64,000 nt of DNA from positions 1 through 64,000 of the forward strand of contig SVTY01000008.1 in NCBI GenBank assembly GCA_015063535.1, in the 5' to 3' direction. Shown in pieces: positions 2,499-55,083 of this stretch (position 1 is its first letter; the number at the start of each line of letters is the position of its first letter). Position numbers and translations under genes: made by a program. The notes beneath the pieces were generated by a model, which was given only the letters and a program-made list of their open reading frames with translations, had not been told where the DNA came from and did no database searches. Source of the DNA: Oscillospiraceae bacterium (GTDB lineage: Bacteria; Bacillota; Clostridia; Oscillospirales; CAG-272).

Positions 2499-2506
2499 GC
2501 GCAAAG

Positions 2507-2532
2507 CAGCCCGAGGCGGTCGCCTCGGGCTG
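2507..2532. terminator. Bidirectional terminator between convergent genes
   Basis: A 12-bp perfect stem CAGCCCGAGGCG/CGCCTCGGGCTG with a two-base spacer separates the converging S1-protein and LRR-protein genes. Confidence 0.8.
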
Positions 2533-2537
2533 TTCTT

Positions 2538-8980: not shown

Positions 8981-9017
8981 GTTTTTTCTCCTTTTTGGAA
9001 TATTTTTGGTACAAGAA

Positions 9018-9046
9018 ATTATATCATAAATTTTCCGAAAAATCAA
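9018..9046 (-). promoter_or_regulatory. Promoter of the LRR lipoprotein gene
   Basis: Minus-strand TTGATT (9041-9046), 17 bases, TATAAT (9018-9023), 38 bases before the start codon. Confidence 0.75.
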
Positions 9047-9073
9047 TCCTTCTCTTAAAAAAAGCAGAAAAAA

Positions 9074-9098
9074 GAGGGAGAAAATCTCATTCTCCCTC
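9074..9098 (-). terminator. Terminator of the HD-deoD-membrane protein operon
   Basis: GAGGGAGAA/TTCTCCCTC stem with a seven-base loop, followed on the minus strand by TTTTTT. It overlaps the last codons of the gene it terminates. Confidence 0.8.
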
Positions 9099-38650: not shown

Positions 38651-40867
38651 TTACATCCCTTCCAGGAAGCGATCCACCACCAGCTGACGGAATTTGGGAG
38701 ACAGAGAGGCGAAATACGCCGTAAAGCCCGTGACCCGCACCACAAGGTCAGGGTGAAGATTGGGGTTCTCATTTGCCTCCAACAGCTTCTCGCCGTCCAG
38801 AATGTTGATGTTGATGAGCGTTCCTCCCTGCTCGAAGTGCGCACGGATAAGCTGTAACACCACGTCAATGCCCCCCTCCTCCTCGGTGAGCTTGGGATCA
38901 AACTCCAGCTGAAGGGGTGCCGTGTTACCGTAGCCGCACTGCACCGATGCGATGCCCTCGGATTGCGCCGTTACCGCTCCGTCCTTACGGAAATGCGGAT
39001 TCGGATTGGCTCCGTGGGACAGAGGCTCTGCTCGGCGGCGACCGTTGGGCATGGTGCCGACCGCCGCTCCGTATTCGATGCTTCTCGCCCAAGAGAACCA
39101 CCCGGGAATAAGCTGTCTACCCTTCGGCATGGGCTGTGCCTTCACCGCCCGCGCAAAGGTCTCGGTCAGCCGCTTTGCCCAAGCGTCGGCAAGACTGCCG
39201 CCGCTACAATATTTGGGAACGGATGCCATGATGTCATGCACACGCTGATCGGCAAAATCGGTATCCAGTGCCTCATACAACACGCCCCAATCCAGCTTTT
39301 TCTCCCGCTCGATGCGCTGCTCGATGGCTGCCAGAGAATCGGCGACCACGGCAAGTCCGGCTCCGTCCACGCCCACGGTGAACAGCTCGGCGCACTCGGA
39401 GGCGTCCTTGCCCTCCTCAAGGCAATGGTGGAACATCAGATTCATCACAAGCTCGGGGGTCACCGCATGTACATGATCCAAGTGGTGATTGACCCCCTTG
39501 GCGATCACGTCCAGTGCGATCTGCAAATGCATCTCAAACAAGCCGTACAGTGACTCCACCGATGGTTCGGGAACATAGCGAAGCTCCTCCAATGCAACCT
39601 CCAGCACCTTGGCAATGTTGACCTTCACCGTGTCGTTCATGGGAAATTCCCTGCCCGGCACGCACATCCAGTTACAGCCCACGGCGATCCTCTCCCTTGC
39701 TACCGACCGATCCACGCCGTTTCGCATGTAGCCCTCGCACAGGGTCTTGTCACAGCAGAAGCGGGGAAAGCCGTTCTTGTTGCGGAAGAGGCACGCCACC
39801 GCATGGCGCAAAAAGGCGGGGTCGCAGTTGTCATGCACCCGAACGGTCAGATTGCAGGAGATGTTGATGGCATCCGCCCCGTCCAAGATCAGATAGGACA
39901 GATGGTTTGTGAGGTCACGGTCGTTTTCGTCCACGCCCGATATCTGATAGTAGTGGGGGTCGATGAGAAGCAGATTGGCAATGAGGAACTTTGCCGTTTC
40001 ATCGTCCAGCCGTCCCGCCGCCACGTCCGCCTCGTAATAGGGGAGCAGAAGCGTATCCAACTGAAAGCCCGCTCCGTCCCGTGTATAGATACGGGCGGCG
40101 CAGTTGAAGAACGCCACCCACTGGCACGCCTCATGAAAGGTCTTGGGTGCCCCCATGCGTACATTCTCACAGACACACAGCATGGTCTGTAAGGACTCCC
40201 TCAGCTCGGGGCGTTCCTCGGCGGGGATCATTTCCCGAATCGCTTCGATGTGGCGGTCGATAAACGCCACGATGGCAAGCACCACTCGCTCCTCGGCATC
40301 GTAAAATGCCTGTTTGTCGGGATTGACCGTTCGGTAATAGCGGATCTTTTCCAAAAGTCCGCCAAAGCCGAGAGAGAGCCCGATGCGGTAGTCGCAGGCA
40401 AAATGGGCATCGCCGTCAATACCCGTGGTCAGATTGTATTTCTTTTGCAGTGGCTTCAGCTCGTCATAGGGGTAGGTCTTTTCATCCCACCGCTTGCTCC
40501 ACTGTGCCGTCACGCCCGACGACATGAAATTGCGGAGCCTTTCGTTTTTCTTGATCCAATCGGGCATATAGTGGATATCGCCCCGATAGTTCACCAGCAT
40601 ATCCCGCCATCTGCCGCAGAGCATCTCCATGGGGTCTACATAGGCGGGGTGCGCCCCGATGACCCGACAGAAATTCTCGCACATACCGTCGAGTCCGTAA
40701 AAGCTGCCGTTCTCGCTGTTGTAGCAGGGCTCCACATAGTAGCCATCGGGCAGCGGCACGGTTCCGAAATCGTCCAGATCGGTATAGCCGTTCTGCGCTC
40801 GCTTTTGCAGGGTATGTTCAATTTTTGTGCGGCGCATTGCCGCCAAGCGATCCTTGTAGGTCAGCAT
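38651..40867 (-). CDS. Glycyl radical enzyme of unknown specificity
   Basis: A 738-residue pyruvate-formate-lyase-superfamily enzyme. The C-terminal glycyl loop is RVTGFTAYF (Gly714). The thiyl Cys is expected at Cys398 in VGCNWMCVPGREF. Known dehydratases and lyases carry Cys-x-Glu here. This one has Trp400 instead of Glu and a second Cys at 402, and it also lacks the Cys-Cys pair of PFL. The start at 40867 has GGAGG twelve bases upstream. An ATG at 40837 is also possible. It overlaps the activase gene and is the last gene of an operon with four Gfo/Idh/MocA proteins. Substrate unknown. Confidence 0.92.
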   Translation of the reverse strand: MLTYKDRLAAMRRTKIEHTLQKRAQNGYTDLDDFGTVPLPDGYYVEPCYNSENGSFYGLDGMCENFCRVIGAHPAYVDPMEMLCGRWRDMLVNYRGDIHYMPDWIKKNERLRNFMSSGVTAQWSKRWDEKTYPYDELKPLQKKYNLTTGIDGDAHFACDYRIGLSLGFGGLLEKIRYYRTVNPDKQAFYDAEERVVLAIVAFIDRHIEAIREMIPAEERPELRESLQTMLCVCENVRMGAPKTFHEACQWVAFFNCAARIYTRDGAGFQLDTLLLPYYEADVAAGRLDDETAKFLIANLLLIDPHYYQISGVDENDRDLTNHLSYLILDGADAINISCNLTVRVHDNCDPAFLRHAVACLFRNKNGFPRFCCDKTLCEGYMRNGVDRSVARERIAVGCNWMCVPGREFPMNDTVKVNIAKVLEVALEELRYVPEPSVESLYGLFEMHLQIALDVIAKGVNHHLDHVHAVTPELVMNLMFHHCLEEGKDASECAELFTVGVDGAGLAVVADSLAAIEQRIEREKKLDWGVLYEALDTDFADQRVHDIMASVPKYCSGGSLADAWAKRLTETFARAVKAQPMPKGRQLIPGWFSWARSIEYGAAVGTMPNGRRRAEPLSHGANPNPHFRKDGAVTAQSEGIASVQCGYGNTAPLQLEFDPKLTEEEGGIDVVLQLIRAHFEQGGTLININILDGEKLLEANENPNLHPDLVVRVTGFTAYFASLSPKFRQLVVDRFLEGM

Positions 40868-41627
40868 AAGTACGCAATTCCTCCATTTTTTCTTTTGTGG
40901 GAACCGAAAATGCGGGGCGGCAAAGACCCAGTGCCTCTGCCTTGGACTGCCCCAACGGATGATAGGGCAACAGCTCGTAGCCCCGAAGATGCCGAAGAGT
41001 ACGCAAGAAGTCCGCCGTTTCCGCAATATTTTTCTGTGTGTCGTTGACCCCGGGAATGATGGGCGTGCGGATCAGCATGGGCACACCGAGAGCATCCGCC
41101 CTTCGCAGATTCTCCAGAATGCGACGGTTGCTCACCCCCGTGTAGGTGCGGTGAAGCCCGTCATCCATCACCTTGATATCCGCCATCAGCAGGTCGATCC
41201 CCGACAAAAGCTCCTCGTCATAGCGGATCATACTGCTTTCGATGGCAACCGAAATTCCTTCCCTACGGCACGCCTCGATCAGCTCCCTCGTAAAGGCGGG
41301 CTGAGCCAATGGCTCTCCCCCCGATACCGTCACGCCGCCTATCTGTCCGTAATAGGCCCTGTCACGCAGAACCTCCTCCATGACCTCCTCTGCGCACATT
41401 TCCCGACCGCACATCACCCGTGCGCCCGAATAACAGCCCTCGGCGCATTTGCCGCACCCGATACACCGTTCGGGATAGAACAGCTCCTGCGGCTCATAGG
41501 AGATACATTCGGGATTGTGGCACCAAGCGCAACGAAGCGGACAGCCCTTGAGAAAGACCACGGTACGGATACCCGGTCCGTCATGGGTGGAAAACCGCTC
41601 GATATCGGCGACCAGTCCCTTGATCAT
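40818..41627 (-). CDS. Glycyl radical enzyme activating protein (radical SAM)
   Basis: A 269-residue radical SAM enzyme that would install the glycyl radical on its neighbour. The SAM cluster motif is C29-x3-C33-x2-C36 in LKGCPLRCAWCHNPE, preceded by the family STHDGPGIRTVVF. An inserted ferredoxin-like segment has one complete C-x2-C-x2-C-x3-C set (Cys55, 58, 61, 65) and two further Cys (73, 78), so it carries fewer Cys than dehydratase activases with two extra clusters. GGVTVSGGEPL and IESS are also present. ATGA overlap with the upstream oxidoreductase and overlap with the GRE gene. Confidence 0.95.
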   Translation of the reverse strand: MIKGLVADIERFSTHDGPGIRTVVFLKGCPLRCAWCHNPECISYEPQELFYPERCIGCGKCAEGCYSGARVMCGREMCAEEVMEEVLRDRAYYGQIGGVTVSGGEPLAQPAFTRELIEACRREGISVAIESSMIRYDEELLSGIDLLMADIKVMDDGLHRTYTGVSNRRILENLRRADALGVPMLIRTPIIPGVNDTQKNIAETADFLRTLRHLRGYELLPYHPLGQSKAEALGLCRPAFSVPTKEKMEELRTYADLQGSLGGNAPHKN

Positions 41628-42730
41628 ACCCGCTCCACCGCCTCGGCATGTCGGCTCTTATCGGAGCGTCTTGCCGCCTCGATCATGGCGATAACGTCCG
41701 CATTGAAATCGGCGGTAAGCGTCGGATGCACAGGCTTTCCCTCCAAGCGGTGGGCGGCATACTGCCAAGGCATGTTGGCATAGACCTCCTGTGCAGACAG
41801 ACTGACGGTGGGCAGCTCCTTGCCCGTCATGTCTACCGCCGCCACGAACGATTCGCCGTCGGGCGTGCCGTCGCACCAGATCACACCGTCGGAGCAGACC
41901 AGCTCAGGTCCTGTGGGCATCCGACGGCGGGGGGTCGTCCATGTCCCCTCACAGACCGAAAAGCCCTCCTCATAGCGGGCGACCGCAACCAGATTGTCCT
42001 CCACGTCTCCGTAAGGCGTTCCCAAGTTTTGCGAGAGCGACATCATATCGTCAGGCACTCTGCCGAACAGCCAACGGGTAAAATAACAGCCATAGCAAAG
42101 AATATCCAAGTAGGCACCGCCGCCGAATTCCTCCCGATACCACCAGGTACGGCTTCTTTCCTCATCGGTCATGTCCTCCGCATTGGCAGCAACGCCTCTG
42201 TGCCGTGCGCCCTTTCCGAGAGGCCCCGTGTGACCGTTCAGATAGCGAAGCTTCTTCAGCTCGCCGCACACACCGCTGTCAAGCGTCGCCTTCATTTCCC
42301 TCACGTATTTTCTCCATGCCACGGGCCAGTTGACGAACACCCGCACGCCAAATTCCTCCCGCAGAGAGGCAATGGCACGGGCTTCCTCCACCGTGGTCGC
42401 CATGGGCTTTTCCACGATCACGTCGATCCCTCGGCGTGCCACCTCACGGGCGACCTCCGCCTTGTTGCAGTTCTCGCACAAAATATACGCCACGTCGGGC
42501 TTGACCGTATCCAGCATCTCCCGATAATCGGCAAAGGAGGTGGTATGGTAGGTGTTGACGATATTGTTCAGATTCCATGCTCTCGTATACCGCTTCTCGG
42601 TCTGCTCGGGAATGGCGGCAGGCGTGTCTGCCACGCCGCACAGCTCGGTATCGGGCTGACCGTCGATATACAGGGCGATCTCATTGGCATGCATGTGGGC
42701 AGTTCCCACGATCACGGCTCGGATGCTCAT
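41624..42730 (-). CDS. Gfo/Idh/MocA oxidoreductase, atypical nucleotide loop (fourth in operon)
   Basis: A 368-residue protein of the Gfo/Idh/MocA family. The catalytic-domain motif VEKPMATT (Glu-Lys-Pro) is present. The usual G-x-G-x-x-G dinucleotide loop is replaced by VIVGTAHMHANEI. NWPVAWRKYV and WWYREEFGGGAYLDILCYG closely parallel the protein at 43890-44978, so these two are a paralogous pair. Starts with a GGAGATCGT-spaced SD and overlaps the neighbours on both sides by four bases. Likely to oxidise or reduce a sugar or polyol using NAD(P). Confidence 0.9.
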   Translation of the reverse strand: MSIRAVIVGTAHMHANEIALYIDGQPDTELCGVADTPAAIPEQTEKRYTRAWNLNNIVNTYHTTSFADYREMLDTVKPDVAYILCENCNKAEVAREVARRGIDVIVEKPMATTVEEARAIASLREEFGVRVFVNWPVAWRKYVREMKATLDSGVCGELKKLRYLNGHTGPLGKGARHRGVAANAEDMTDEERSRTWWYREEFGGGAYLDILCYGCYFTRWLFGRVPDDMMSLSQNLGTPYGDVEDNLVAVARYEEGFSVCEGTWTTPRRRMPTGPELVCSDGVIWCDGTPDGESFVAAVDMTGKELPTVSLSAQEVYANMPWQYAAHRLEGKPVHPTLTADFNADVIAMIEAARRSDKSRHAEAVERV

Positions 42731-43845
42731 ACGATCTCCTCCGCACGGATCTCACGCCCCTGCTCTGCCGAACGGTAGAACGCCTCGATGATCTTGGCGA
42801 CCTCCAGATTCTGATGCTTCTTGATGAGAAATTCTTCCTTGCCCGCAAGGGTGTTGATGATATTGCGGTACATGTAGCGGTGCTGCTCGAAGGGAACGCC
42901 CCGATAGGCACCGTTGTCGAACCACTTCATGTCGCACTCGCTCTGATACCGCCCGATGTTCTTGTACAGACGCTCCTTGTTCACCGACAAGCCGCCCTTG
43001 TCGCCGCAGATCACCATGTCAAGGTTGGTGGTGGGCAGATTCAACGCCCAAGAGAACTTGAAGTTGACGCTCATGCCACCCTCCATGCGCAGAAAGCCCG
43101 TGGAAAATTCCTCCACGTTGAACTCCCGATAATCATAAGGACGGGGTGTGAAGGCTCCGCTGTATGCGCCGCTCTCGGCAAGGCTCAGATGGATGTCCTC
43201 GCCCTGATTGGCAAGCTTCGTGTAGGCACTGCCCGACACACTGACCATCTTCTTGTCGCCCACCAGCCACAAAAGCGAGTCGATCAGATGCACGCCAAGG
43301 TCGCAGAAGGGGCCGCCGAAGTTGTGCTCCTTCATATGGAAGAAGCCCCACGTGGGAATGCCGATCCGACGGATAAATTCGATGTCGGAGAAGTACACGT
43401 CGCCCAGCTCGCCGCTCTCGATCAGTGCCTTGGAGTGCTGCATGTAATTTCTCCACCGCATACACTGGCAGGGGAACAGGATCTTGCCGCATGCCTCTGC
43501 GGTATCCCACATCTCCTTGGCGTCGGCATAGGTCAGGGCGATGGGCTTTTCGCAGGCAACGTGCGCCCCTGCCTGCAACGCCTTGATCGTCCACTCCTTG
43601 TGGTACATGTTGGGCGTGCAGACCGCCACAAAATCGGGCTTCAGCTCGTCCAGCATTTTCTGGGGATCCTTGTAGTAGTTGGGTACCGCATGGCGGCGGG
43701 CGGTCTCTGCCGCTACCTCCTCACGGATATCGGCAACGCCGACCACCTCAACAAGTCCCTCTTCTCTCAACACATTCAGGGCGGGAAAATGAGCACTGTT
43801 GGCGATCATTCCCGTTCCGATAATGGCAACTCTCAATTTTTTCAT
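42727..43845 (-). CDS. Gfo/Idh/MocA oxidoreductase (third in operon)
   Basis: A 372-residue dehydrogenase with a regular Rossmann loop VAIIGTGMIANSAHFPAL, catalytic CEKPIALT, and the substrate-domain motif GGPFCDLGVHLIDSLLWL with the conserved Asp-x3-His. This resembles inositol- or glycoside-dehydrogenase-type members. Its stop overlaps the next gene by four bases. A 44-bp gap separates it from the gene upstream. NAD(P)-dependent oxidation of a sugar is expected. The exact substrate cannot be read. Confidence 0.93.
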   Translation of the reverse strand: MKKLRVAIIGTGMIANSAHFPALNVLREEGLVEVVGVADIREEVAAETARRHAVPNYYKDPQKMLDELKPDFVAVCTPNMYHKEWTIKALQAGAHVACEKPIALTYADAKEMWDTAEACGKILFPCQCMRWRNYMQHSKALIESGELGDVYFSDIEFIRRIGIPTWGFFHMKEHNFGGPFCDLGVHLIDSLLWLVGDKKMVSVSGSAYTKLANQGEDIHLSLAESGAYSGAFTPRPYDYREFNVEEFSTGFLRMEGGMSVNFKFSWALNLPTTNLDMVICGDKGGLSVNKERLYKNIGRYQSECDMKWFDNGAYRGVPFEQHRYMYRNIINTLAGKEEFLIKKHQNLEVAKIIEAFYRSAEQGREIRAEEIV

Positions 43846-43889
43846 GGTTGTTTCTCCTTTTCTTCACCGATTCTTCCTATATTCCGATA

Positions 43890-44978
43890 TTACAGAACCA
43901 AGCGCCGTACCGTTTCGGTCACGCCCGTCTTGGCGGACCGTGCGCCGGCATCCAATGCCGCCACGATCCGCAGATTCAGCTCCTCGCAAAGCAGCGGGTG
44001 CGGCTCTCTGCCCTCCGCCAAGCACCCGACCACGCTCTCGGCGGACAGGGCAGGAACGTCTGGCTTGGGAAGCTCGATGACCTCGGTGGGAGCGATCCAT
44101 CCGTGGCTTCTTCCCTCATAGAGCTTCAGCACGTTGCTGTGGCGGTCGCAAACGATCACACCGTCGGTGCCGTACAGCACGGGGCCGCTGGGGATCTCGG
44201 CAGGGTTATAGGTCGACCAAGAGCCCTCCAAAAGTCCCACGCCCTTGCCGAAATCCAGCAGCATGGCACTGTAATCCTCTACATCGGAAAAGTCGGTGGC
44301 AAACTGCTTGGCAAGGCAGGCAACACGGTCAGCCGACTGCCCGAACATCCACGTGGACAGTGCCGCTCCGTAGCAGGCATAGTCCAAGATCGAGCCGCCG
44401 CCCCGATGGGCTTGATACCACCAGCTGGCAAGAAGCTCCTCCTTGGGGGGAAGCTGTCCGTCCTTGGAATAGGAGAAGGGTCCCCATGTGGCAGGACTTC
44501 GGTAGACACACCGCATCAGCGTGCCGATCCGTCCCTCGTCCAGCATCTGCTTGGCAAGGGTAAAGCTGGGGAACCAAGCAATGGGCCAGTTGGTCAGCAT
44601 CCGCACGCCGTTCTCCTTGGCGCATGTGACCATTGCTGCCCCGTCCTCAAAGGTGGGTGCCATGGGCTTTTCGTCAATGACGTGAACTCCCCTCGAAAGC
44701 AAGGCACAGCAGACCTCCTTACGGGAGGCGTTGTCCGACGTCACTACGGCAAAATCCAATCCCGCATCCGCCAGATCGACCCAATTGTCAAATTTCTTGG
44801 CTTCGGGAAATTTCTCCGCCATTTTGGCGCAATGCTTCTCCAAGTGTTCCTCCGAATAGGGAGGAACCTCGGCAAAGCCCACCACCTCAAACACATCGGG
44901 TCTCTGCGCCAGCAGACGCATCAGCGCACTGATGTGGGGATGGGCAAAGCTGAAAATACCTGTCTTTAATTTTTTCAT
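43890..44978 (-). CDS. Gfo/Idh/MocA oxidoreductase, atypical nucleotide loop (second in operon)
   Basis: A 362-residue family member with DEKPMAPT as the catalytic motif. Its N-terminus TGIFSFAHPHISALM lacks the Gly-rich dinucleotide loop, and, as in the protein at 41624-42730, places two His near this position. NWPIAWFPSF and WWYQAHRGGGSILDYACYG are shared with that paralogue. The start at 44978 has GAGGAG; the frame is open to 44999 but overlaps the upstream stop. The pair may form a hetero-oligomer or bind a cofactor differently. Confidence 0.9.
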   Translation of the reverse strand: MKKLKTGIFSFAHPHISALMRLLAQRPDVFEVVGFAEVPPYSEEHLEKHCAKMAEKFPEAKKFDNWVDLADAGLDFAVVTSDNASRKEVCCALLSRGVHVIDEKPMAPTFEDGAAMVTCAKENGVRMLTNWPIAWFPSFTLAKQMLDEGRIGTLMRCVYRSPATWGPFSYSKDGQLPPKEELLASWWYQAHRGGGSILDYACYGAALSTWMFGQSADRVACLAKQFATDFSDVEDYSAMLLDFGKGVGLLEGSWSTYNPAEIPSGPVLYGTDGVIVCDRHSNVLKLYEGRSHGWIAPTEVIELPKPDVPALSAESVVGCLAEGREPHPLLCEELNLRIVAALDAGARSAKTGVTETVRRLVL

Positions 44979-44995
44979 CGCTTCTCTCCTCTTTC

Positions 44996-46102
44996 TCAAA
45001 AAGTGGTTTCCAACTCAACGGTGGCACCGCCGGCAATGGCTTCGGGAATCTTACACATGATCTCCAGCACGTGACGGGCATGCTCGGGAGTCAGCACAGG
45101 CTCACGATCCTCCTCCACGGCATCAATCAGGTCACGCAGACAGCAGCACTGGCTGATGAGCTTCTTCGGCTTCGTCTCCCAGCTCATGGGCTCTACCCAG
45201 CCGCGAATGCCCCGCTCGGGACAGTCCATATAGACCTCGGGCATGGGATTCTGCATATATCCCTTGGAAAAGGCAAGTGTTCCCTCACTGCCGAAGATCT
45301 CCAGCTGAGGCGCCTTGGACGCCTTCTGCGAAAATCCCGTATCCACAAAGCCGATCTTGCCGTTGGCGAAGGTGATGGAGATAAAATACTCATCGGGGAT
45401 CTTGTTTGCCTCGATGGGCTTGCCGTTGTACTTGCCCGAACGGACCCGACGGTTGGGGGTGGTGACGGCGGCAAGACAGCTGATCTTCTTGGCGGGGCCG
45501 AACATGGAGGTGACGATCTGCAAGCCGTGCACGCCCATATCCACGAGAGCCCCCGCTCCGTCCTCAAAGAACCATGTGGGATCGGCATCCCGATATTGGA
45601 AGTATTCGGGGCCGCCGTGAGCCAGATTGCACTTGATGTAGGCAGGCTCACCGATCACGCCGTCACGGATCATCTGACGGGCGACTGCCAGATCGTAGCG
45701 CATGGGGTGGATGGGAGCGCAGACGAATTTCACGCCCATCCTCTTTGCCAGCTCGATCTGCTCGGTCATCAGCTCCACCGAGGGAGCGGCGGGCTTTTGG
45801 GAGACCAGATGCTTCCCTGCTCCGAGAATCGCCATATTGATCTGATGGTGTGCCTGAATGGAGGCGGCGTCGATGGCGATATCGAAGTCGCACTGTGCCA
45901 GCAGCTCCTCCACCGAAGAATACCAAGCGGGAACGCCGAATTTCTTCGCCGCCTTCTGCGCCCGCTCAGGGACGATATCGCAGACGGCAACGCATTCCGC
46001 ATTTGCCTCCTTTGCGATGTTGGGCAGATATTGCCCGTTGGCAAACATACCGCAGCCGATGACGGCTACCTTCCATTTTTTCTGACCCTGTTGCATTGTC
46101 AT
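44996..46102 (-). CDS. Gfo/Idh/MocA oxidoreductase (first in operon)
   Basis: A 368-residue dehydrogenase, first gene of the glycyl-radical operon. VAVIGCGMFANGQYLP gives a standard Rossmann loop. The catalytic Glu-Lys-Pro appears as SQKPAAPS, Gln replacing Glu. GAGALVDMGVHGLQIV holds the Asp-x3-His. The start at 46102 (MTMQQGQKKW) follows AAGGAG; an ATG at 46096 is also possible. A promoter with two 13-bp direct repeats upstream controls the operon. Confidence 0.92.
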   Translation of the reverse strand: MTMQQGQKKWKVAVIGCGMFANGQYLPNIAKEANAECVAVCDIVPERAQKAAKKFGVPAWYSSVEELLAQCDFDIAIDAASIQAHHQINMAILGAGKHLVSQKPAAPSVELMTEQIELAKRMGVKFVCAPIHPMRYDLAVARQMIRDGVIGEPAYIKCNLAHGGPEYFQYRDADPTWFFEDGAGALVDMGVHGLQIVTSMFGPAKKISCLAAVTTPNRRVRSGKYNGKPIEANKIPDEYFISITFANGKIGFVDTGFSQKASKAPQLEIFGSEGTLAFSKGYMQNPMPEVYMDCPERGIRGWVEPMSWETKPKKLISQCCCLRDLIDAVEEDREPVLTPEHARHVLEIMCKIPEAIAGGATVELETTF

Positions 46103-46165
46103 ACTCCTGTCTCCTTTTTCATTCTTTTTTCGGTTCGGAAGCGCATCCGACCGATTCTTACTTTC

Positions 46166-46193
46166 ATTATACCATAAAAGCAGGAAAAAACAA
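46166..46193 (-). promoter_or_regulatory. Promoter of the Gfo-activase-GRE operon
   Basis: Minus-strand TATAAT (46166-46171) with a poor -35 TTGTTT (46188-46193), 16-base spacer. The weak -35 fits an activator-dependent promoter. Confidence 0.7.
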
Positions 46194-46194
46194 T

Positions 46195-46228
46195 GCACAA
46201 TATGAACCAATTATAGCACAATATGAAC
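46195..46228 (-). promoter_or_regulatory. Tandem activator-type binding sites
   Basis: GCACAATATGAAC occurs at 46195-46207 and again at 46216-46228, a 21-bp offset (two helical turns), directly abutting the -35. Such direct repeats are typical for AraC/XylS-family activators. No such regulator gene is in the window. Confidence 0.65.
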
Positions 46229-46300
46229 ATTTTCGAGATTTTTTTGTTTTTTCTTATTCTGCGGGGAATCCCACTATGTTCGCATATCTCTCATTGTAAG

Positions 46301-46376
46301 GCGGCGGCTTGCTGCCGCCGTTCTATTCCGTTTCAAATTTCAATCTTTTTCGGCGGGAGCAAGCCCCCGCCCTACG
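46301..46376. repeat. Two short GC-rich hairpin repeats upstream of the operon
   Basis: A hairpin around GGCGGC..GCCGCC (46301-46320) is followed by a TTTCAAATTTCAATCTTTTT leader and a copy of the CGGCGGGAGCAAGCCCCCGC repeat (46351-46376), also found at 53443 and 63485. The rest of 46229-46438 shows nothing else. Confidence 0.7.
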
Positions 46377-46438
46377 AGTTTGGTGATTTCTCCTCACAAC
46401 GAATTCTCTATGGAACGCTCCTTTTGTTTTCGTGATAC

Positions 46439-46506
46439 AAAAAAAGTGTGCCGATATCCTTTATCGACACACGCAAGCCTCCGAATGACCGATGTCATTC
46501 GGAGGC
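46439..46506 (-). terminator. Tandem terminators of the GH38 gene
   Basis: On the minus strand, GCCTCCGAATGAC/GTCATTCGGAGGC (46477-46506) is followed by a second stem (46446-46456 with 46462-46472) and TTTTTTT. This separates the GH38 gene from the oxidoreductase operon. Confidence 0.85.
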
Positions 46507-46548
46507 TTTTCTGTATGAAACTTATGTGGAAGTACTTGCCGGAAAAGC

Positions 46549-49500
46549 TTATTTTGCAAACTTCAAGGTTACGATCTCAAAATTGGACAACGACAACGTT
46601 ACCCTGCCATCGGTCACCGTCAGCTCACGCTCCGGCTCCTCCAGCAGATTGCAAAGCCATGCCCGTCCGTATTCAGCGGGAACGCTTACCGTTACCGTAG
46701 ATTTGCAATCGTAGGCATCGTGGAAGCGCACCACCAGACCGTTATCGTCCTCCGCCTTTTTCACGGCGGTGATCACCGCATTGGGCACATCCACCGAGAC
46801 CAGGGAAAAGATCTCGGCAAGACTTCCCTTGCCTGCTCCCACCGATTGATAAAGCAGCGGTTGATTCAATGCCCATGCTTCGGTGATCACGCCCGCCTCC
46901 CGGAAGTCGCCCACATGGGGCATCAACGAATAGGTGAAGCGATGCTCGCCCTGGTCGGCATCGGGGTTGGGATCGGTACCGCACTTCAAAAGCGTAAGGC
47001 TCAGATCGCTTCCTCGGGCGCTGTATCCGTACTTGCAATCATTCAGCAGCGCTACACCGTAGCCAGACTCGGAGATATCCGCCCACTTGTGTCCGTAGAC
47101 CTCAAACTTCGCCTCGTCCCAAGAGGTATTCTCATGGGTCGCTCTGGTCACGTGACCGTACTGTATGTCATAGGTCGCGCTCATGGCATGGACATGCAGG
47201 GGGAAGGATGCCTTCAGCACCTGATGATGCTCGTGCCAGTCGATCACCGTCTCAAAGTCGATGCGGCTGCTTTCGGAATAGAGCCATAGCGTCTGGAGAA
47301 TGGTGGAATGCATATACTGCCGTTTGATCCGAAAGCCTGCTCGTGTTCCGTCGGTGACAGGGATCACCGTCGCCTTGTCGTTCAGCGGATAGGGCTTCAG
47401 ACGGTAGAACTCCTGAAGCTCCCAGTTATCGTATTGGTTGGGATTGTCCTCAAACACGGTCAGCACGTTGCCGCACCGTCCCGCCTTGAACACGCCTCTT
47501 CCCACTCGCTTGTCAAGCAATGTCTCGATCTGCCCCGCCTCATTCAAGGTCAGCACATAAAAATCATTTTCGGCGGTCATGCCCTGCACCGTCACACGGC
47601 TGTTGGGGGCGGTATCCTGCACCACCGTCCAACCGTAGGAGGGGACTACTTCTACCGTTTCCCGATAGGTGCCGTTGACCGACAGAGCGACCCGTCTTGC
47701 AAAGCCCGTGGGATTATAGATCAGCGTACCGCCCTCGGTATTCAGACGGGAGGCGATGGCAGACAGCTTTTGCGTTGCCACTCCGTCGGCATACTCGGCA
47801 ATAGCGGCGTAATCCTTGTCGGTGCCGTCATAGACCCACTTGATCGAGGAGCCGGGGAGAATGTCGTGGAACTGGTTGTGCAAGGTCTTGCGCCAGATGC
47901 GGTTCAGCCCCTCGGCGTCATAGTCGCCGCCAAAGGTCAGGTCGGTCACAGACAGCGCCTCGGCATTTGCCAGCAAAAATTCTGATTTGCGGTTGCCCCG
48001 CTTGACCTTTGCGACGGAGGTATAGGTTCCTCTGTGAAATTCCAAATACAGCTCACCGACCCATTTGGGAGTACAGTCGGTGCGATTGCAGGCTTCGTCA
48101 AAGCTACCCTTCACAGCTTGCAGATAGGGATACAGGAGACTCATTTCGGTCACAGGCATCTGCGGCAACCCCTTCGCCAAACGGCGCTGTACCTCCAGCA
48201 TCTCCTTGGTGGGACCTCCGCCGCCGTCGCCATAGCCGTAGGTCGTCATGATGCGGTCGGAATATTCTTTTTGCTGAAACCGCTCCCAGGTTCCCTTAAT
48301 CTCGGAGGGGTTCAGCTTGCCGCAATATGTGGTTCCCTTGTGTTTTGCTCCCGGCTCACCGCCATATCCTTGGGTGGTGATAAAGGAGGTAAAGATCTCG
48401 GAGCCGTCGATCCCCTCCCACAGGAAGGCATCCTTGGGCATCAAATTGGTATCATTCCAGCTGATCTTGGAGGTAACAAAATATTCCACTCCGCTCTTGT
48501 TCAGGATCTGAGGCATGGCGGCGGAATAGCCGAACACATCGGGCAGAAACAGCACACGACTCTCTTTACCGAACTCCTTGCGGAAGAATTTTTTGCCGTG
48601 CAGGATCTGGCGCACCAGACTCTCGCCCGAGGTCAGATTGCAGTCCGCCTCTAAGTACATCGCTCCCTCCGGCTCCCATCTGCCCTCCTTGACCAACTCC
48701 TTCAGCTCCTCGTATTTTTCGGGAGCCTCTTCCTTCAGATACCGATACAACTCGGGCTGAGACAGGGTGAATTTGTATTCGGGGTAACGGTCCATCAGCA
48801 TCTTGGCTGTGGCGAAGCTCCGCTGGATCTTCTCACGGGTCTGCGCTCTGTGCCACAGCCACTCCACGTCGATGTGGGTATGTCCCACGCAATGCACCAC
48901 AGGCTTTCCCTCGGTAGTGCAGAGCTTGCCGTAGAACTCGGATGCCATAAAGTCAATGGCGTCCTTGACCGACGCTTGACAGGTTTCGCCGTCGGGGTCA
49001 CGCAGATCGACGAGACGGGCAGCATCCGACAGCACCGACATCATTCGGATCCAATCGGAATCCGCCTCGGACAACAGCTCGCAGACCTCATAAGGAACCT
49101 TCACATCATAATACAGCTGCTCGACCTGCTTGTTCAGCGCAAGCAGCTCCATGCTGTAAAAGGAAGGGCTTCGGCGTGTGCCTGTGTAAATATAATTGTA
49201 CAGCTCATACTCGGTCTCCGGCTCTAAAAAAGCCTCGGTGTGATTGTTGTCTATGCCTTGGATCATCCTGCCGTTTAAGTACAGCAATCCCTGTCCGTGT
49301 CCGTCAAAGCCCTCGTTGATCCTTAGGATCAGCTCCTCTCCCTCCTGCACAGCAGGGGTTCGGAAGGATGCACGGAGCCAAAAATGGGCATCCGTTCCCT
49401 GCAAGGGCATGTCGGAGGTATAAGGCATCCAGCCATCGGCAGGTGGCGTGTTGCCCGTTTTGTAGTCACAGGGCTGATATTCCACCCCGGACAGATTACA

Positions 49501-49566
49501 AAGATGACGGTAGCGCATACGATCCAGACTTTTCAGAAAGGACTTTACACTGTTCTTTAGATTCAT
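46549..49566 (-). CDS. GH38 alpha-mannosidase
   Basis: A 1005-residue cytoplasmic retaining alpha-mannosidase. An N-terminal beta-rich domain precedes the catalytic part with metal and active-site motifs VGHTHIDVEWLWH (His229, Asp233 and neighbours), the nucleophile Asp343 in LFLPDVFGYSAAMP, and LHNQFHDILPGSS, then the long C-terminal beta domains. Such enzymes release mannose from N-glycans or phospholipid mannosides. No signal peptide. The start at 49566 has AAAGGAG. It has its own promoter and ends at tandem terminators before the oxidoreductase-GRE operon. Confidence 0.95.
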   Translation of the reverse strand: MNLKNSVKSFLKSLDRMRYRHLCNLSGVEYQPCDYKTGNTPPADGWMPYTSDMPLQGTDAHFWLRASFRTPAVQEGEELILRINEGFDGHGQGLLYLNGRMIQGIDNNHTEAFLEPETEYELYNYIYTGTRRSPSFYSMELLALNKQVEQLYYDVKVPYEVCELLSEADSDWIRMMSVLSDAARLVDLRDPDGETCQASVKDAIDFMASEFYGKLCTTEGKPVVHCVGHTHIDVEWLWHRAQTREKIQRSFATAKMLMDRYPEYKFTLSQPELYRYLKEEAPEKYEELKELVKEGRWEPEGAMYLEADCNLTSGESLVRQILHGKKFFRKEFGKESRVLFLPDVFGYSAAMPQILNKSGVEYFVTSKISWNDTNLMPKDAFLWEGIDGSEIFTSFITTQGYGGEPGAKHKGTTYCGKLNPSEIKGTWERFQQKEYSDRIMTTYGYGDGGGGPTKEMLEVQRRLAKGLPQMPVTEMSLLYPYLQAVKGSFDEACNRTDCTPKWVGELYLEFHRGTYTSVAKVKRGNRKSEFLLANAEALSVTDLTFGGDYDAEGLNRIWRKTLHNQFHDILPGSSIKWVYDGTDKDYAAIAEYADGVATQKLSAIASRLNTEGGTLIYNPTGFARRVALSVNGTYRETVEVVPSYGWTVVQDTAPNSRVTVQGMTAENDFYVLTLNEAGQIETLLDKRVGRGVFKAGRCGNVLTVFEDNPNQYDNWELQEFYRLKPYPLNDKATVIPVTDGTRAGFRIKRQYMHSTILQTLWLYSESSRIDFETVIDWHEHHQVLKASFPLHVHAMSATYDIQYGHVTRATHENTSWDEAKFEVYGHKWADISESGYGVALLNDCKYGYSARGSDLSLTLLKCGTDPNPDADQGEHRFTYSLMPHVGDFREAGVITEAWALNQPLLYQSVGAGKGSLAEIFSLVSVDVPNAVITAVKKAEDDNGLVVRFHDAYDCKSTVTVSVPAEYGRAWLCNLLEEPERELTVTDGRVTLSLSNFEIVTLKFAK

Positions 49567-49742: not shown

Positions 49743-50246
49743 TTACCTCGTCACCCGTAAAAGACCGATCTCCTCCACTCTGCCGTCGTCGATCTCGAAG
49801 GTCAGCTCCTGATTGCCCGACACGTAAACGAGGTCGTCCTCGTCGCCCCTTTGAGGCTCACCGTAGGCGGTCTTGACTTTTTCAACCGTATCGCCAATAC
49901 AAATTCCCTTGTCGGTGCTTACCAAGTCGTCGTTCAGCTCGATCTGGTCGATGATCTCCTTGCCGTCGGACTTCATGGTATACAGCTCCAGCGAACCGAA
50001 GCGGTAGAACATGCGGGAGTTGCCCTCTCCGCAATCAAAGACCTCTTGGCTGAGCGTGGGCGTACCCAGTGCCGCAAGCACGGGAGCGGCATCCTTGCCC
50101 AGCTCCACCGCCGTACCGTTCACCGTTACGCCAAAGCCCGTGGCGGTTGTTCCCCCCTCGGTGCTTGCTCCGTCATTTTTTTTGGCACAGGCAACGGCGC
50201 AAACCGTCAGTGCCAAAACCAATATCAAAAGTATCGCTTTTTTCAT
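49743..50246 (-). CDS. Small lipoprotein of the Dlt-like cluster
   Basis: A 167-residue exported protein with signal peptide and lipobox AVAC (Cys20), followed by a Gly/Thr-rich linker and a domain (about 40-167) with two similar halves (GVTVNGTAVELGKDAAPVLA ... GICIGDTVEKVKTAYGEPQ) like small surface lipoproteins of Clostridia. Three bases separate its ATG from the upstream SGNH gene stop, so it is the last gene of the acylation operon. Function unknown. Confidence 0.8.
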   Translation of the reverse strand: MKKAILLILVLALTVCAVACAKKNDGASTEGGTTATGFGVTVNGTAVELGKDAAPVLAALGTPTLSQEVFDCGEGNSRMFYRFGSLELYTMKSDGKEIIDQIELNDDLVSTDKGICIGDTVEKVKTAYGEPQRGDEDDLVYVSGNQELTFEIDDGRVEEIGLLRVTR

Positions 50247-50249
50247 TTT

Positions 50250-51290
50250 TTATTTCTCTCCTTCTCTGTTTTCCTTATCGGTATGATACCGCTCCACTCT
50301 GCCCTGCCACCGCTCGGACAGCTCGGTATCGGCTCGGCGGTCGGCAATACCGTGTTCGCTCTGTAATATCTCTCCGAAATAGCTTGTCAGCTTCTCGGCA
50401 CCGTACACGTTCAAATGCACGCCGCCGTCATAGGTATCTCGGCTCCAGTCAATGCCGATCTCGCCGCACAGCGGAATGAAGTTGTAGTATCGCAAGCCGT
50501 TCTGCTCGGCGTAAGACACGATCTGCTCCTCCCATTCCTCATACCACCAGTATGCCCACGAATTGGTGGGCGCCTTCATCAAAATCAGCTCGGCTCCCTT
50601 TTCCTCGCACAAAAGACGCATCCGCTCCAAATAGTCCATCGCCGTCTTTGGCAGAGTATAGTCCGACAGTCTCGCACCCTCAATATCGGCAAGCTCGGCG
50701 GACATGGGAGCAACTCCCGTCTGCATCAGATAGCCGCTGTGAGACACGGCAGGCGGCTCGGAGAAGGCATAGCGGAAATCCTCTCCCTTCAGCTCGGTGA
50801 TGCGGGAATGGAACCGCAACAGCGGAAACACATAGTCCAGAAACTGCTCGTCCTCGGTCATAGAGGCTCGGATCGCCTGTACCTTGGAGGACGACCACTG
50901 CATACCGTCCAGCGTCATACGATTGAACGCCTCGCTCTGCGGCTCTCCGTATTTCAGCGCAAGGACATTAAAGACCACCGCCTTGGGGGTCTCCTTCTCC
51001 AGCATTTCCCGAAGCAGATAGTAGGAGTGCCACACAAGCTGCTGTCCGCTGCCCCGCACATAGGAGGAAATCCCATATTCCTCCCACAGCACGGCGGGAA
51101 TGATGCTCTCATAGACCTCGCAATCGCCCACGAACAGAACGTCATGTTCCCCCGCCTCGGCGTAATATTCCCCGATCAGCGCACCCTCGGGATTTTCCCG
51201 ATATTTCGGCATCAGCACCGCCTGACACAGCCCCAGCACAAGGGCAAGGACAAGGAGGGCGCAGACCGTAATCAAAATTCGTTTTTTCAT
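50250..51290 (-). CDS. SGNH-hydrolase/DltD-like protein
   Basis: A 346-residue protein with an N-terminal membrane anchor (KRILITVCALLVLALVLGL) and an extracytoplasmic domain of the SGNH/DltD kind. FVGDCEVYESI occupies the block I position (usually GDS, here Asp-Cys), and YDGGVHLNVYGAEKL is block V with Asp-x-x-His. In Dlt systems DltD assists transfer of D-Ala to teichoic acid. The missing Ser suggests altered chemistry (Cys or none). Between MBOAT and lipoprotein genes, gaps of 9 and 3 bp. Confidence 0.85.
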   Translation of the reverse strand: MKKRILITVCALLVLALVLGLCQAVLMPKYRENPEGALIGEYYAEAGEHDVLFVGDCEVYESIIPAVLWEEYGISSYVRGSGQQLVWHSYYLLREMLEKETPKAVVFNVLALKYGEPQSEAFNRMTLDGMQWSSSKVQAIRASMTEDEQFLDYVFPLLRFHSRITELKGEDFRYAFSEPPAVSHSGYLMQTGVAPMSAELADIEGARLSDYTLPKTAMDYLERMRLLCEEKGAELILMKAPTNSWAYWWYEEWEEQIVSYAEQNGLRYYNFIPLCGEIGIDWSRDTYDGGVHLNVYGAEKLTSYFGEILQSEHGIADRRADTELSERWQGRVERYHTDKENREGEK

Positions 51291-51299
51291 GCGTTATCC

Positions 51300-52886
51300 T
51301 TAAAATTGGTTATAGATAAACTGGCTGGCGTCATACCCTACGCCGTATGCGCCGAAGAGCAGGATCGCAAGGAGCAGTCCGCCGCACAGCACCCACGACA
51401 GCACAGGGCGGTCGTACAGCCGCTCCCGTATATCCATCCGCATCGTCAGCCTGCTGACGACAGCGACCGTCAGCACGCCCCCCGCAAGGATGATCCAATC
51501 GGCAAGCGTAAGCCCAAGGCTCATCATGCCCGACCCAAGCTCGCCCCAATTCCACACGGTGAGCATGCTCCCCCACAGACGGAAGGTCAGCCCCACATCC
51601 CGATAGCAGTCAAGGGAGCGAAACAGCCCCATGAGCAAAAAGGTACGCACCGCCATAAAGCCCCCGTAAGGGGAGGAGGCGGTAAGCCTCGGGAATTTCA
51701 CCCGAAAGCGGGCATAGAGCGGCTCCAGCTCCTGCGAGACGAGAATGACGGCGCAGTTGAGCAGACCCCACACGATAAAGTTCCACCCCGCACCGTGCCA
51801 AAGACCCGTCAGAAACCATGTGACGATGGTGGCAAGATAGACGGGAATACGCTTTCCCACGGTGTTGCCCAGCACTCGGCGGCTCCACTTGGAGAGCTTC
51901 ATCATAGGGCGTGTGACCGACAGCGGATAAAACACGTAATCGGTAAACCAGCTCCCCATGGTGATGTGCCACCGCCGCCAGTATTCCTTGGTGGAGCGGG
52001 ACGAAAAGGGATGGTCGAAGTTCTCCGCCAAGCGAATGCCAAGGCACTGCGCCACACCGACGGTGATGTCGATACCGCCCGTAAAGTCGGCGTAGATCTG
52101 CACCGAATAAAGCAGGATCAGCAAAATCACGTACACGCCCCGATATCCGTCGGGCGTGTCCAGCATAGTCTGCATGGCGACCAGTACCCTGTCGGCAATG
52201 ACCAGCTTCTTGAAGTAGCCCCACAGAATGCGCTGAAGCCCGTATGTAAAGCCACGGGCATCAAAGGCATGAGGGGCGTACAGCTGCGCCGCAAGGTCTC
52301 CGTGACGGGAGATCGGTCCCTGCACAAGCTGCGGAAAGAAGGACACAAACAACGCCAAGCGGAAGAAATTTTCCTCGGCTTGTGTTTTTCCCCGATAGAC
52401 GTCGATGAGGTAGCCCATGGTCTGAAAGATGTAAAAGGATATGCCCATGGGAAGGAGCAGGTCGGGGATACCCAACGGCTCCGCACCGAACGCCGTCAGC
52501 GCCGAATTGAGGTTGAACACCGCAAAGGCGGTGTATTTCAGAACGGCAAGAATGCCGAAATTCAGTACAAGCCCGCACAGAAGAACGCCAAAACGGCGTT
52601 TTTTTGCCTTCGCCTTGTATGCCTTCCTCGCTTCCTTGTCCATCGAATCCCGATGGGCGGCAAGATAGTCGCTCTCCCGCCCCGCCATCCTCGCCATAAG
52701 ACGGGCGACCGCATAGGCGGAGACGGTCGTGACGGCAATAAATATGAGGCACTGCCAGCCCGCAAAGGCGTAAAAGATATAGCTCGCCGCAAGGAGCAGT
52801 CCCCATTGCCACCGTTTCGGCACGAAATAATAGGCGACGAACAGCAGACAAAGAAAGGCGATAAAGCCGTAAGAGGTGAACAGCAT
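51300..52886 (-). CDS. MBOAT-family O-acyltransferase (DltB/AlgI-like)
   Basis: A 528-residue membrane protein with about eleven membrane segments. MBOAT hallmarks: LLPMGISFYIFQTMGYLIDVYRG, GPISRHGDL, RSTKEYWRRWHITMGSWFTDYVFYPL and the catalytic His in FLTGLWHGAGWNFIVWG. AlgI and DltB members move an acyl group across the membrane to a surface polymer. The neighbours (carrier protein, AMP ligase, SGNH protein) place it in an acylation pathway. Spacing of 8 bp to the carrier gene. Confidence 0.95.
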   Translation of the reverse strand: MLFTSYGFIAFLCLLFVAYYFVPKRWQWGLLLAASYIFYAFAGWQCLIFIAVTTVSAYAVARLMARMAGRESDYLAAHRDSMDKEARKAYKAKAKKRRFGVLLCGLVLNFGILAVLKYTAFAVFNLNSALTAFGAEPLGIPDLLLPMGISFYIFQTMGYLIDVYRGKTQAEENFFRLALFVSFFPQLVQGPISRHGDLAAQLYAPHAFDARGFTYGLQRILWGYFKKLVIADRVLVAMQTMLDTPDGYRGVYVILLILLYSVQIYADFTGGIDITVGVAQCLGIRLAENFDHPFSSRSTKEYWRRWHITMGSWFTDYVFYPLSVTRPMMKLSKWSRRVLGNTVGKRIPVYLATIVTWFLTGLWHGAGWNFIVWGLLNCAVILVSQELEPLYARFRVKFPRLTASSPYGGFMAVRTFLLMGLFRSLDCYRDVGLTFRLWGSMLTVWNWGELGSGMMSLGLTLADWIILAGGVLTVAVVSRLTMRMDIRERLYDRPVLSWVLCGGLLLAILLFGAYGVGYDASQFIYNQF

Positions 52887-52894
52887 ATCCCCTC

Positions 52895-53122
52895 TTATTC
52901 CTCGTCAAGACGCTCGATGAGCGCCCACAGAGCGGCGGCGGAGTTGAAGTTTTCGGGAACGATCTCCTCGGCGGGGATCGTCACGTCAAATTCCGAGTCG
53001 ATCTCGGTCACCAGCGTCACGATGTCCAACGAGTCGAGAATGCCGTCGTCTACCAAGTCCTCCGCCTCAGAAAAATCCACGTCGGGGTGGAGGGAGGTAA
53101 GGATTTCAAGAAGCTTTTCCAT
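52895..53122 (-). CDS. Acyl carrier protein (DltC-like)
   Basis: A 75-residue carrier protein with phosphopantetheine Ser31 in DDGILDSLDIVTLVTEI, the family DSL motif. It would receive an activated group from the AMP ligase and present it to the MBOAT. Good SD (AAGGAGAAACA). It is separated from the ligase gene upstream by 441 bp containing three repeat elements, an unusual break in an otherwise tight operon. Confidence 0.94.
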   Translation of the reverse strand: MEKLLEILTSLHPDVDFSEAEDLVDDGILDSLDIVTLVTEIDSEFDVTIPAEEIVPENFNSAAALWALIERLDEE

Positions 53123-53295
53123 GTTGTTTCTCCTTATTTACAGAGTGTATTTGTCACCAAAGAAACTTTTTGAAAAAAGTTTCTTTGGAATCTTCAAAAA
53201 CTTTCAAAAATATTTTTGCTATGTTTGCAGATATATCACGGTAGGAGCGACGTCCTGACGACCCGTTCCAATCCGATTCAAATTTCATCCTTCCT

Positions 53296-53414
53296 CGGAC
53301 AGTCGGGGACGCCTGTCCCTACAATCAATTGGGTGTGAAGCCGTTTTGTTTGTACAATGGGCGAACCGTCTATGTCTCTGCAAACCTGTAGGGACAGGCG
53401 TCCTCGACTGTCCG
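53296..53414 (+). repeat. 119-bp inverted-repeat element, copy 1
   Basis: 28-bp terminal arms (53296-53323 and 53387-53414) match with one difference, framing about 63 bp of non-coding interior that includes TTTTGTTTGTACAATGGGCG. Three further 119-bp copies lie at 58752, 61366 and 63340. The copy sits between the AMP-ligase and carrier protein genes, preceded by an ATTCAAATTTC leader shared with other copies. Confidence 0.9.
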
Positions 53415-53442
53415 TTTCCAGCCGATACAATTTGCAACCTTT

Positions 53443-53468
53443 CGGCGGGAGCAAGCCCCCGCCCTACG
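53443..53468. repeat. CGGCGGGAGCAAGC hairpin repeat
   Basis: Copy of the GC-rich hairpin also found at 46351 and 63485, following a CAATTTGCAACCTTT leader. Confidence 0.75.
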
Positions 53469-53487
53469 GGGTTGGCGGTTCTTTATC

Positions 53488-53560
53488 AAGATAAATTTTG
53501 CAAAGTTTTCTTTTGCAACCTTTTCTTTTTCAAAAGAAAAGTAAGACGCATCCTCGCATC
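53488..53560. repeat. Poly-pyrimidine palindrome repeat
   Basis: AAGATAAATTTTGCAAAG followed by a TTTTCTTTTT/AAAAGAAAAG palindrome and GTAAGACGCATCCTCGC. Related copies occur at 37441, 56521, 61541 and 63297. It directly follows the AMP-ligase gene and may terminate it in part. Confidence 0.7.
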
Positions 53561-53563
53561 CCC

Positions 53564-55072: not shown

Positions 55073-55083
55073 GTCTCCCTCCG

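Follow-up and report, generated by a model that had tools for sequence, protein, structure and literature searches.

A candidate glycyl radical enzyme of apparently undescribed kind encoded with four Gfo/Idh/MocA oxidoreductases in an Oscillospiraceae genome

A 64,000-nucleotide stretch of DNA from an Oscillospiraceae bacterium (contig SVTY01000008.1; hereafter the window) is predicted to encode a glycyl radical enzyme (GRE) of an apparently undescribed kind, in which the Glu expected two residues after the catalytic Cys is replaced by Trp. The GRE gene is one of six co-directional genes on the minus strand between positions 38651 and 46102, which were ordered G4-G3-G2-G1-activase-GRE in the Pfam analysis, G1 to G4 encoding Gfo/Idh/MocA oxidoreductases (hereafter Gfo genes and enzymes). 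An earlier reading of this DNA (the original prediction) had described six tightly packed minus-strand genes, namely four Gfo genes, an activase gene and a GRE gene, and all of them were recovered by Pfam, with small or negative gaps. The change from Glu to Trp beside the catalytic Cys, which is the most distinctive feature found, had not been mentioned in that reading. These are public sequences of known superfamilies; what appears to be new is the GRE variant and its partnership with Gfo enzymes. The clade to which this GRE belongs was not recognised in literature on the active sites of GREs, on similarity networks and on anhydro sugars, a survey of titles and the beginnings of abstracts with most subscription papers outside it, and the only co-mention of 'glycyl radical' and 'MocA' was in an unrelated-looking Alzheimer review (PMC8639879), where MoCA may be a cognitive test.

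Active-site signature and phylogeny of the GRE

Alignment located both the radical loop RVTGF with Gly714 and the catalytic Cys398 in the window GRE (P0001). Its AlphaFold2 model (pLDDT 91.2) matched GREs in all 50 PDB fold matches listed of 228, with a TM-score of about 0.8 and approximately 20% identity; the top match among those listed was 1,2-propanediol dehydratase, many solved GREs matching about equally well. The GRE also appears to have a dedicated activase, encoded by an overlapping gene whose product scored above the cut-off of its NCBIfam model. Judged from loop, Cys, predicted fold and activase, the window protein is a member of the GRE superfamily.

None of the equivalog models tested, which were those for CutC, HypD, HpsG/HpfG, PflD-type PRK09983, indoleacetate and HPA decarboxylases and pyruvate formate-lyase (PFL), was matched by the window GRE at its cut-off. 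The best NCBIfam equivalog score was 190 bits, against cut-offs of 994-1150, and the best subfamily score was 254 bits against 678. 'CutC-like', as applied to two other loci (L151 and L152), is a working label, both being below the CutC cut-off. By sequence, the nearest solved GREs in the PDB were nearly tied, namely PflD (5.4e-47), PFL2 of Archaeoglobus (7.4e-47) and glycerol dehydratase (3.3e-46).

The motif GC[NHSQ]W was found in 57 of 57 sequences of the group that is termed CxW here, three of which (oL013, oL068 and oL069) joined it on motif grounds, whereas YbiW, PflD and HypD have GCxE. For the other 46 members scored, for which only the best E-value per NCBIfam model was tabulated, the best E-value for any equivalog was 2.8e-78. 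Throughout the 54 aligned CxW sequences, Trp stands at Cys+2 in place of the general-base Glu, and Cys+9 is an invariant Glu. Five residues (D33, W400, E407, E472 and N686) were invariant in these 54 sequences and absent from the 16 canonical-type GREs of the alignment, two of which also lack the Glu at Cys+2 (Val and Gln). Gly714 was kept in 53 of the 54, the remaining sequence being cut at a contig end. Loss of the Glu is not unique to the CxW clade, since control GREs without it exist (GCNQ, GCSH and GCVF); the combination of Trp with Glu at Cys+9 was seen only in this clade among the GREs compared. Other GREs of the same order that apparently have no active-site Glu were observed at L170, L171, L180, L186 and L187, variously with GCNQ, GCVF or GCSH, of which the last two may be misplaced pattern matches.

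In a tree of 74 GREs, from which oL015, L134, L120 and L028 were omitted as misread, masked or cut, the 54 CxW sequences formed one clade with a support of 1.0, which was 0.88 once the three deepest sequences (GCQW) were excluded. By both the NCBIfam scores and the tree, the GRE fits no characterised family tested, which is in line with the original prediction.

Conservation of the gene set

A scan of genome contigs identified seven loci with GREs at 70-81% identity, all of them metagenome-assembled, and gut sources (roe deer, sheep or water buffalo) were named in the records of five. Within the genus of the window a GRE of at least 70% identity was found in three of 30 genomes, its own included, which indicates that the gene is patchy in the genus. 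Matches at E <= 1e-60 were obtained in 30 of 391 genomes of a draw from the class and in 29 of 395 genomes of a draw from the family, with two candidates scored per genome (five in the search for G1 described below), so that absences may be overcounted; the two 395-genome draws were taken as one set, since they agree in size, in tally denominators and in the handles listed. The CxW clade was present in dozens of genomes of the class. No CxW GRE from outside the class was detected in a 299-genome draw from the phylum (E <= 1e-90), in which the two matches besides the window's own genome both had GCxE.

Neighbourhoods were compared for 56 CxW loci, comprising 53 GRE neighbourhoods and three deeper relatives; 31 of these, the window included, form the core clade, with a GRE identity of at least 59%. 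Of 69 rows listed for the class and family draws (38 + 31, the window's own being in both), 18 were outside the neighbourhood set as short contigs, second copies or unfetched, and L030 (partial GRE) and L040 (GRE in two frames) were excluded from the counts. The controls were 20 non-W GRE loci taken from a ranking rather than at random, five of which have less than 2 kb on one side, and related genomes count as independent observations in the Fisher tests on these counts.

The order G4-G3-G2-G1-(activase)-GRE recurred in 12 of the 31 core loci, window included, with no recognised activase in between at L116, and this recurrence is more than expected by chance. A Gfo gene on the same strand within 5 kb was found at 27/31 core, 7/25 non-core CxW and 1/20 control loci; three or more within 8 kb were found at 20/31, 0/25 and 0/20, and any Gfo gene within 8 kb on either strand at 27/31, 12/25 and 4/20, respectively. 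Two of the core exceptions (L028 and L117) have unreadable upstream sequence at a contig end; the other two (L101 and L103) have no Gfo neighbours and are adjoined by rhamnosidase-like genes, identified by Pfam at L101 and by clustering at L103. The partnership proposed in the original prediction is therefore conserved in the core clade and weak beyond it. Homologues without dehydrogenases, which the original prediction had named as evidence that would count against it, do occur, at two of the 29 core loci whose upstream sequence could be read and in most distant CxW relatives, and because of them the coupling can be called strong only in the core clade.

Among the Gfo genes, G1 showed the closest association with the GRE. 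A search independent of the neighbourhood profiles (E <= 1e-60, 395 family genomes) detected it in 12 genomes, each of them one of the 17 that bear the core GRE; of the five core-GRE genomes without it, three carry another Gfo gene (F14) instead and two carry none. Comparison of G2 with PDB sequences by phmmer gave nearly full-length matches to DgpA1 (1.6e-52) and DgpA (1.9e-50), and the EKP Lys and the GVH (GxH) His were both matched in the alignment with DgpA, these being the catalytic residues of DgpA-type 3-dehydrogenases. G2 thus resembles enzymes of the C-glycoside 3-dehydrogenase type, which is compatible with the earlier proposal that oxidation prepares the substrate. The best PDB match of G4 was also DgpA1 (9.1e-23), weaker than that of G2, and the best match of G1 was glucose-fructose oxidoreductase (1.4e-8). 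G3 is a distant paralogue of G1 (29% identity) with weak PDB matches, and neither G1 nor G3 is close to any solved Gfo protein. By family consensus, G1 and G3 have Tyr at the position of the His in G2 and G4, as in glucose-fructose oxidoreductase, and G1 keeps the EKP lysine. In a further Gfo family seen at relatives' loci (Gfo423, L031:6546-7799 and relatives), the usual EKP lysine is missing (consensus saVP), which suggests an altered or non-redox function.

TIM-barrel isomerase-like genes were found within 8 kb of the GRE at 13 of the 56 CxW loci versus none of the 20 control loci. Profiles indicated that the TIM-barrel and Gfo domains are fused at L121, L127 (5683-7611; AP_endonuc_2 by Pfam) and L129, and clustering indicated such a fusion at L040, where it and an activase gene stand beside a GRE match split over two frames (2266-3708; 46% and 35% identity). 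Other variants of the locus have G2-like and G1 genes together with a TIM-barrel gene (F7) and Gfo423, and a TIM-Gfo423-G2-like module was found away from the GRE in G638, G764, G367 and G139 and, within the reach of its contig, in G550. A divergent AraC-type gene is often located upstream of G4 in relatives. The statement in the original prediction that the cluster contains no transporter agrees with the window genes scanned; in relatives, binding-protein-dependent ABC permease genes are located within about 8 kb of the GRE at L114 (with an SBP_bac_1 protein), L119 and L125. At an unlinked locus of the window's own genome (L153, G000:C16), TIM-, Gfo- and AraC-like genes accompany a FAD oxidoreductase that is 68% identical to a neighbour of the CxW GRE at L097. 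Right-handed beta-helix proteins are encoded near GCQW-type GREs (L160:11283-13355 and L162:1625-3373), that of L160 with an L-rhamnose mutarotase domain.

Gene calls and limits of the operon

The features of the locus are listed in the table. The intergenic gaps from G4 to the GRE were 14, 44, -4, -4 and -50 bp, the 14-bp gap having been computed with a G3 start at 44981, three bases upstream of the ATG that was actually read. The GRE open reading frame (ORF) of 791 aa appears to be an over-extension into the activase gene, as orthologues begin at the position of the ATG at 40867. The ATG at 46102, behind an AGGAG-like site, is the likelier start for the G4 ORF of 404 aa, and the upper coordinate of the GH38 gene is its first ATG.

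Features of the six-gene locus and its upstream neighbour in the window
Feature	Coordinates	Strand	Evidence
GRE, 738 aa, CxW clade; Cys398 (GCNW), Gly714 (RVTGF), Glu407 at Cys+9	38651..40867	-	Pfam PFL-like 2.4e-88, Gly_radical 9.6e-13; alignment, tree, AlphaFold2
Radical SAM GRE-activating enzyme; 50 bp overlap with GRE start	40818..41627	-	NCBIfam TIGR02494 281 bits (cut-off 174); Pfam Radical_SAM, Fer4
G1, Gfo/Idh/MocA oxidoreductase	41624..42730	-	Pfam; family consensus
G2, DgpA-like Gfo/Idh/MocA oxidoreductase (C-glycoside 3-dehydrogenase type)	42727..43845	-	Pfam; phmmer against PDB
G3, Gfo/Idh/MocA oxidoreductase	43890..44978	-	Pfam; ATG read at 44978
G4, Gfo/Idh/MocA oxidoreductase, first gene of the operon	44996..46102	-	Pfam; ATG 46102 and ribosome-binding-site-like AGGAG
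Intergenic gap GH38/G4 with terminator-like hairpins; probable operon promoter and leader	46103..46548	.	Hairpins 46446-46472 (minus), 46475-46508 (plus)
GH38 family protein; neighbour, judged outside the operon	46549..49566	-	Pfam GH38 N, mid and C domains; PF01074 3.9e-86

The operon most likely consists of the six genes from G4 through the GRE, since hairpins separate GH38 from G4 and a promoter-like site with full consensus (TTGACA-17-TATAAT) separates the GRE from cysK. In a 12-kb scan, promoter-like sites were enriched (12 versus 6.4 in shuffled sequences, sd 2.6) and terminator-like sites were not (12 versus a shuffled mean of 10.6).

The link to the GH38 mannosidase that had been drawn in the original prediction did not hold, and GH38 was rejected as a member of the pathway, because terminator-like hairpins precede G4 and no GH38 gene was found to recur beside the operon in relatives, either by tblastn at 15 loci or by clustering at 55. 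CysK, which was considered on account of a CysK-like gene near the GRE fragment at L030, was also rejected in view of the promoter-like site between the GRE and cysK; at the other operon loci of the 15-locus comparison no CysK match was as strong as that at L030, the one at L027 being weak (30%). The 19 window proteins scanned in and around the operon included no recognisable sugar kinase, phosphotransferase system (PTS) component or aldolase.

Elsewhere in the window, two BspA-type leucine-rich-repeat proteins (2538-4250 and 6803-9109) flank a UvrD-like helicase gene, and clustered genes for an MBOAT O-acyltransferase, a weakly GDSL-like protein and an AMP-binding protein (49743-55117, minus strand) possibly form a D-alanylation or acetylation set.

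Possible reactions and comparison with known systems

We infer the substrate and the reaction of the GRE from gene content and sequence. In the explanation that we favour, with a probability of roughly 0.35, the operon provides a step of an anaerobic pathway for a sugar, a glycoside or a sugar-derived cyclic compound, in which Gfo enzymes make a ketone and the GRE cleaves the adjacent C-O bond without the Glu. One or more Gfo enzymes (G2 and perhaps G4) would oxidise a ring hydroxyl, most likely at C3, to a ketone; the activated GRE would then abstract a hydrogen beside the ketone and expel the beta C-O group, which may be the ring oxygen, a hydroxyl or a glycosidic group; and the remaining Gfo enzymes (G1 and G3) would reduce the product or recycle the hydride, resulting in a redox-balanced route. 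Trp400 may stack on the sugar ring. In diol-dehydratase-type GREs the Glu takes a proton from the substrate hydroxyl, and it might be dispensable here because a ketone beside the radical carbon would acidify the hydroxyl and stabilise the radical. The substrate is probably of plant origin, and it is probably not phosphorylated, since there is no sugar kinase among the six genes. In the 3-keto pathways described in PMC7676230 and PMC8563793, oxidation at C3 is followed by elimination, and the DgpBC lyase includes a TIM-barrel subunit (PMC8563793); the TIM-barrel genes near CxW GREs were accordingly counted in favour of this explanation. Also counted in its favour were the Gfo frequencies at core loci relative to the controls, the restriction of G1 to genomes with this GRE, the DgpA match of G2, the invariant W400 and E407, and the position of PflD, an enzyme of 1,5-anhydromannitol-6-phosphate, as nearest solved GRE by a small margin. 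Slightly less probable is the broader proposal that the CxW clade is a functionally new GRE branch, in which the Glu has moved or been dispensed with and which carries out base-free radical cleavage of C-O or C-C bonds in keto sugars made by dedicated Gfo partners.

Several points weigh against the favoured explanation. The lead of PflD in the list of sequence matches is only slight, and the fold list is headed by 1,2-propanediol dehydratase. That a ketone might take over the role of the Glu is chemical reasoning, and only G2 is specifically tied to 3-oxidation, G1 and G3 being too remote for assignment. L101, L103 and 18 of the 25 non-core CxW loci have no same-strand Gfo gene within 5 kb. 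The Gfo and TIM-barrel profiles were built from genes near CxW GREs, a bias that favours positives there relative to the controls, and they missed the TIM-barrel gene of L034, so that the counts are rough. The best models for the TIM-barrel protein, all below cut-off, are hydroxypyruvate or 2-oxo-tetronate isomerase and not a 3-keto-glycoside lyase, and the window operon itself has no TIM-barrel gene, the best match elsewhere in its genome being just 33% identical.

Alternatively, keto sugars made by the Gfo enzymes might be eliminated and reduced to an unphosphorylated 1,5-anhydro or deoxy sugar, which the GRE would ring-open in the manner of YbiW/PflD, as in anhydroglycolysis. PflD is narrowly the closest solved GRE, its loop after the Cys is like that of the window GRE (GCVELSIPGRTYGLHD versus GCNWMCVPGREFPMND), and G1-G4 are weakly similar to 1,5-anhydrofructose reductase (2glx). 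The substrate of PflD is 1,5-anhydromannitol-6-phosphate (PMC12441222; title of PDB 8id0), and beta-elimination from a 3-keto-glycoside gives 1,5-anhydro-hex-1-en-3-ulose (PMC7676230, PMC8563793). However, GCxE is kept in YbiW and PflD and lost in the window family, both proteins are placed outside the CxW clade by the tree, and the kinase, PTS and aldolase were not recognised among the window proteins scanned; we consider this route unlikely. A possible anhydroglycolysis cluster was observed in another genome (G827, L167:8126-14539), where two canonical-type GREs, one with GCVE and a PflD-like loop and one with GCLE and a YbiW-like loop, are encoded beside genes that are sugar-kinase-like by their first residues.

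Still less probable is a PFL-like role, in which the GRE would split a C-C bond of a keto sugar or keto acid produced by the Gfo enzymes. PFL functions without the Glu, a GRE of the window genome that was taken as PFL (oL002) reads ACCVS at the motif, the Gfo enzymes would supply carbonyl compounds, and the TIM-barrel partner resembles keto-acid isomerases; but the PFL model TIGR01255 scored 70 bits against a cut-off of 994, and the adjacent Cys-Cys pair of PFL is absent. PFL-like Cys-Cys chemistry was considered a weak candidate since Cys402 is not conserved, being Ala or Ser in several members. It is improbable to a further degree that several Gfo enzymes interconvert isomers of inositol or another cyclitol to an inosose, which the GRE would dehydrate. 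Inositol 2-dehydrogenase is the top NCBIfam model for G2 and G4, although at 75-87 bits against a cut-off of 355, and AP_endonuc_2 proteins include the IolE fold. On the IolE model, however, the TIM-barrel protein reached 19 bits (cut-off 290), and an inositol route was rejected on these model scores. Further points against it are the closeness of G2 to DgpA and the lack of any other recognisable iol gene in the set of 19 proteins scanned around the operon. We regard as equally improbable a non-sugar substrate, such as a plant aromatic acid or an aglycone that the Gfo enzymes merely free from a glycoside. GRE decarboxylases of aryl acetates exist, and a pocket Trp could hold an aromatic ring; furthermore, DgpA-type enzymes handle flavonoid C- and O-glycosides (PMC8563793, PMC11239390). 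Against such a substrate, the pairing of G1 with the GRE persists where other Gfo genes vary, the indoleacetate and HPA decarboxylase models scored low (96 and 79 bits), and the neighbourhoods yielded glycosidase-like and ABC permease genes, in searches not aimed at aromatic-pathway genes.

Difficult anaerobic reactions of the gut are carried out by GREs, and the assignment of new members has brought further pathways to light. The CxW clade is easily recognised by GC-x-W with E at Cys+9 and has a consistent, testable partner gene in G1. In the absence of the Glu base, CxW GREs should work differently from diol-dehydratase GREs, and for this reason one solved member would extend the known reaction types and could explain the oxygen-free use of oxidised or C-linked sugars by fibre-fed gut microbes. 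A conserved gene set in gut bacteria of plant-eating animals points to an unknown anaerobic breakdown of plant sugars or their derivatives. If the CxW clade is indeed a new, base-free branch, plant-eaters would harbour in their guts a radical equivalent of the beta-elimination of 3-keto-glycosides.

Among known systems, the diol dehydratase, choline TMA-lyase and hydroxyproline dehydratase GREs share with the window GRE the whole-chain fold, the Cys and the Gly; they differ in sequence and in having Glu where it has Trp, and its scores are far below the CutC and HypD cut-offs. YbiW/PflD of E. coli, which ring-open 1,5-anhydrohexitol-6-phosphates, are similar in the GRE fold, in having their own activase, in C-O cleavage (here proposed) and in the loop after the Cys, whereas they have GCxE in place of GCNW, are outside the CxW clade, and act on substrates phosphorylated by a PTS (PMC12441222), neither kinase nor PTS having been recognised in the window scan. 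The levoglucosan pathway LgdA-LgdB1-LgdB2-LgdC likewise involves C3 oxidation by a dehydrogenase and partners of the sugar isomerase/epimerase type (PMC7676230), but there is no GRE among its four enzymes, and G1-G4 score 34-86 bits on the LevoglcsnDh model (cut-off 650). Gut C-glycoside cleavage by DgpA and DgpBC is similar in that G2 resembles DgpA along almost its entire length and some relatives have Gfo and TIM-barrel genes. Neither DgpB nor DgpC was recognised among the window operon genes, with no search aimed at DgpB, and the conserved partner here is a GRE rather than a lyase complex.

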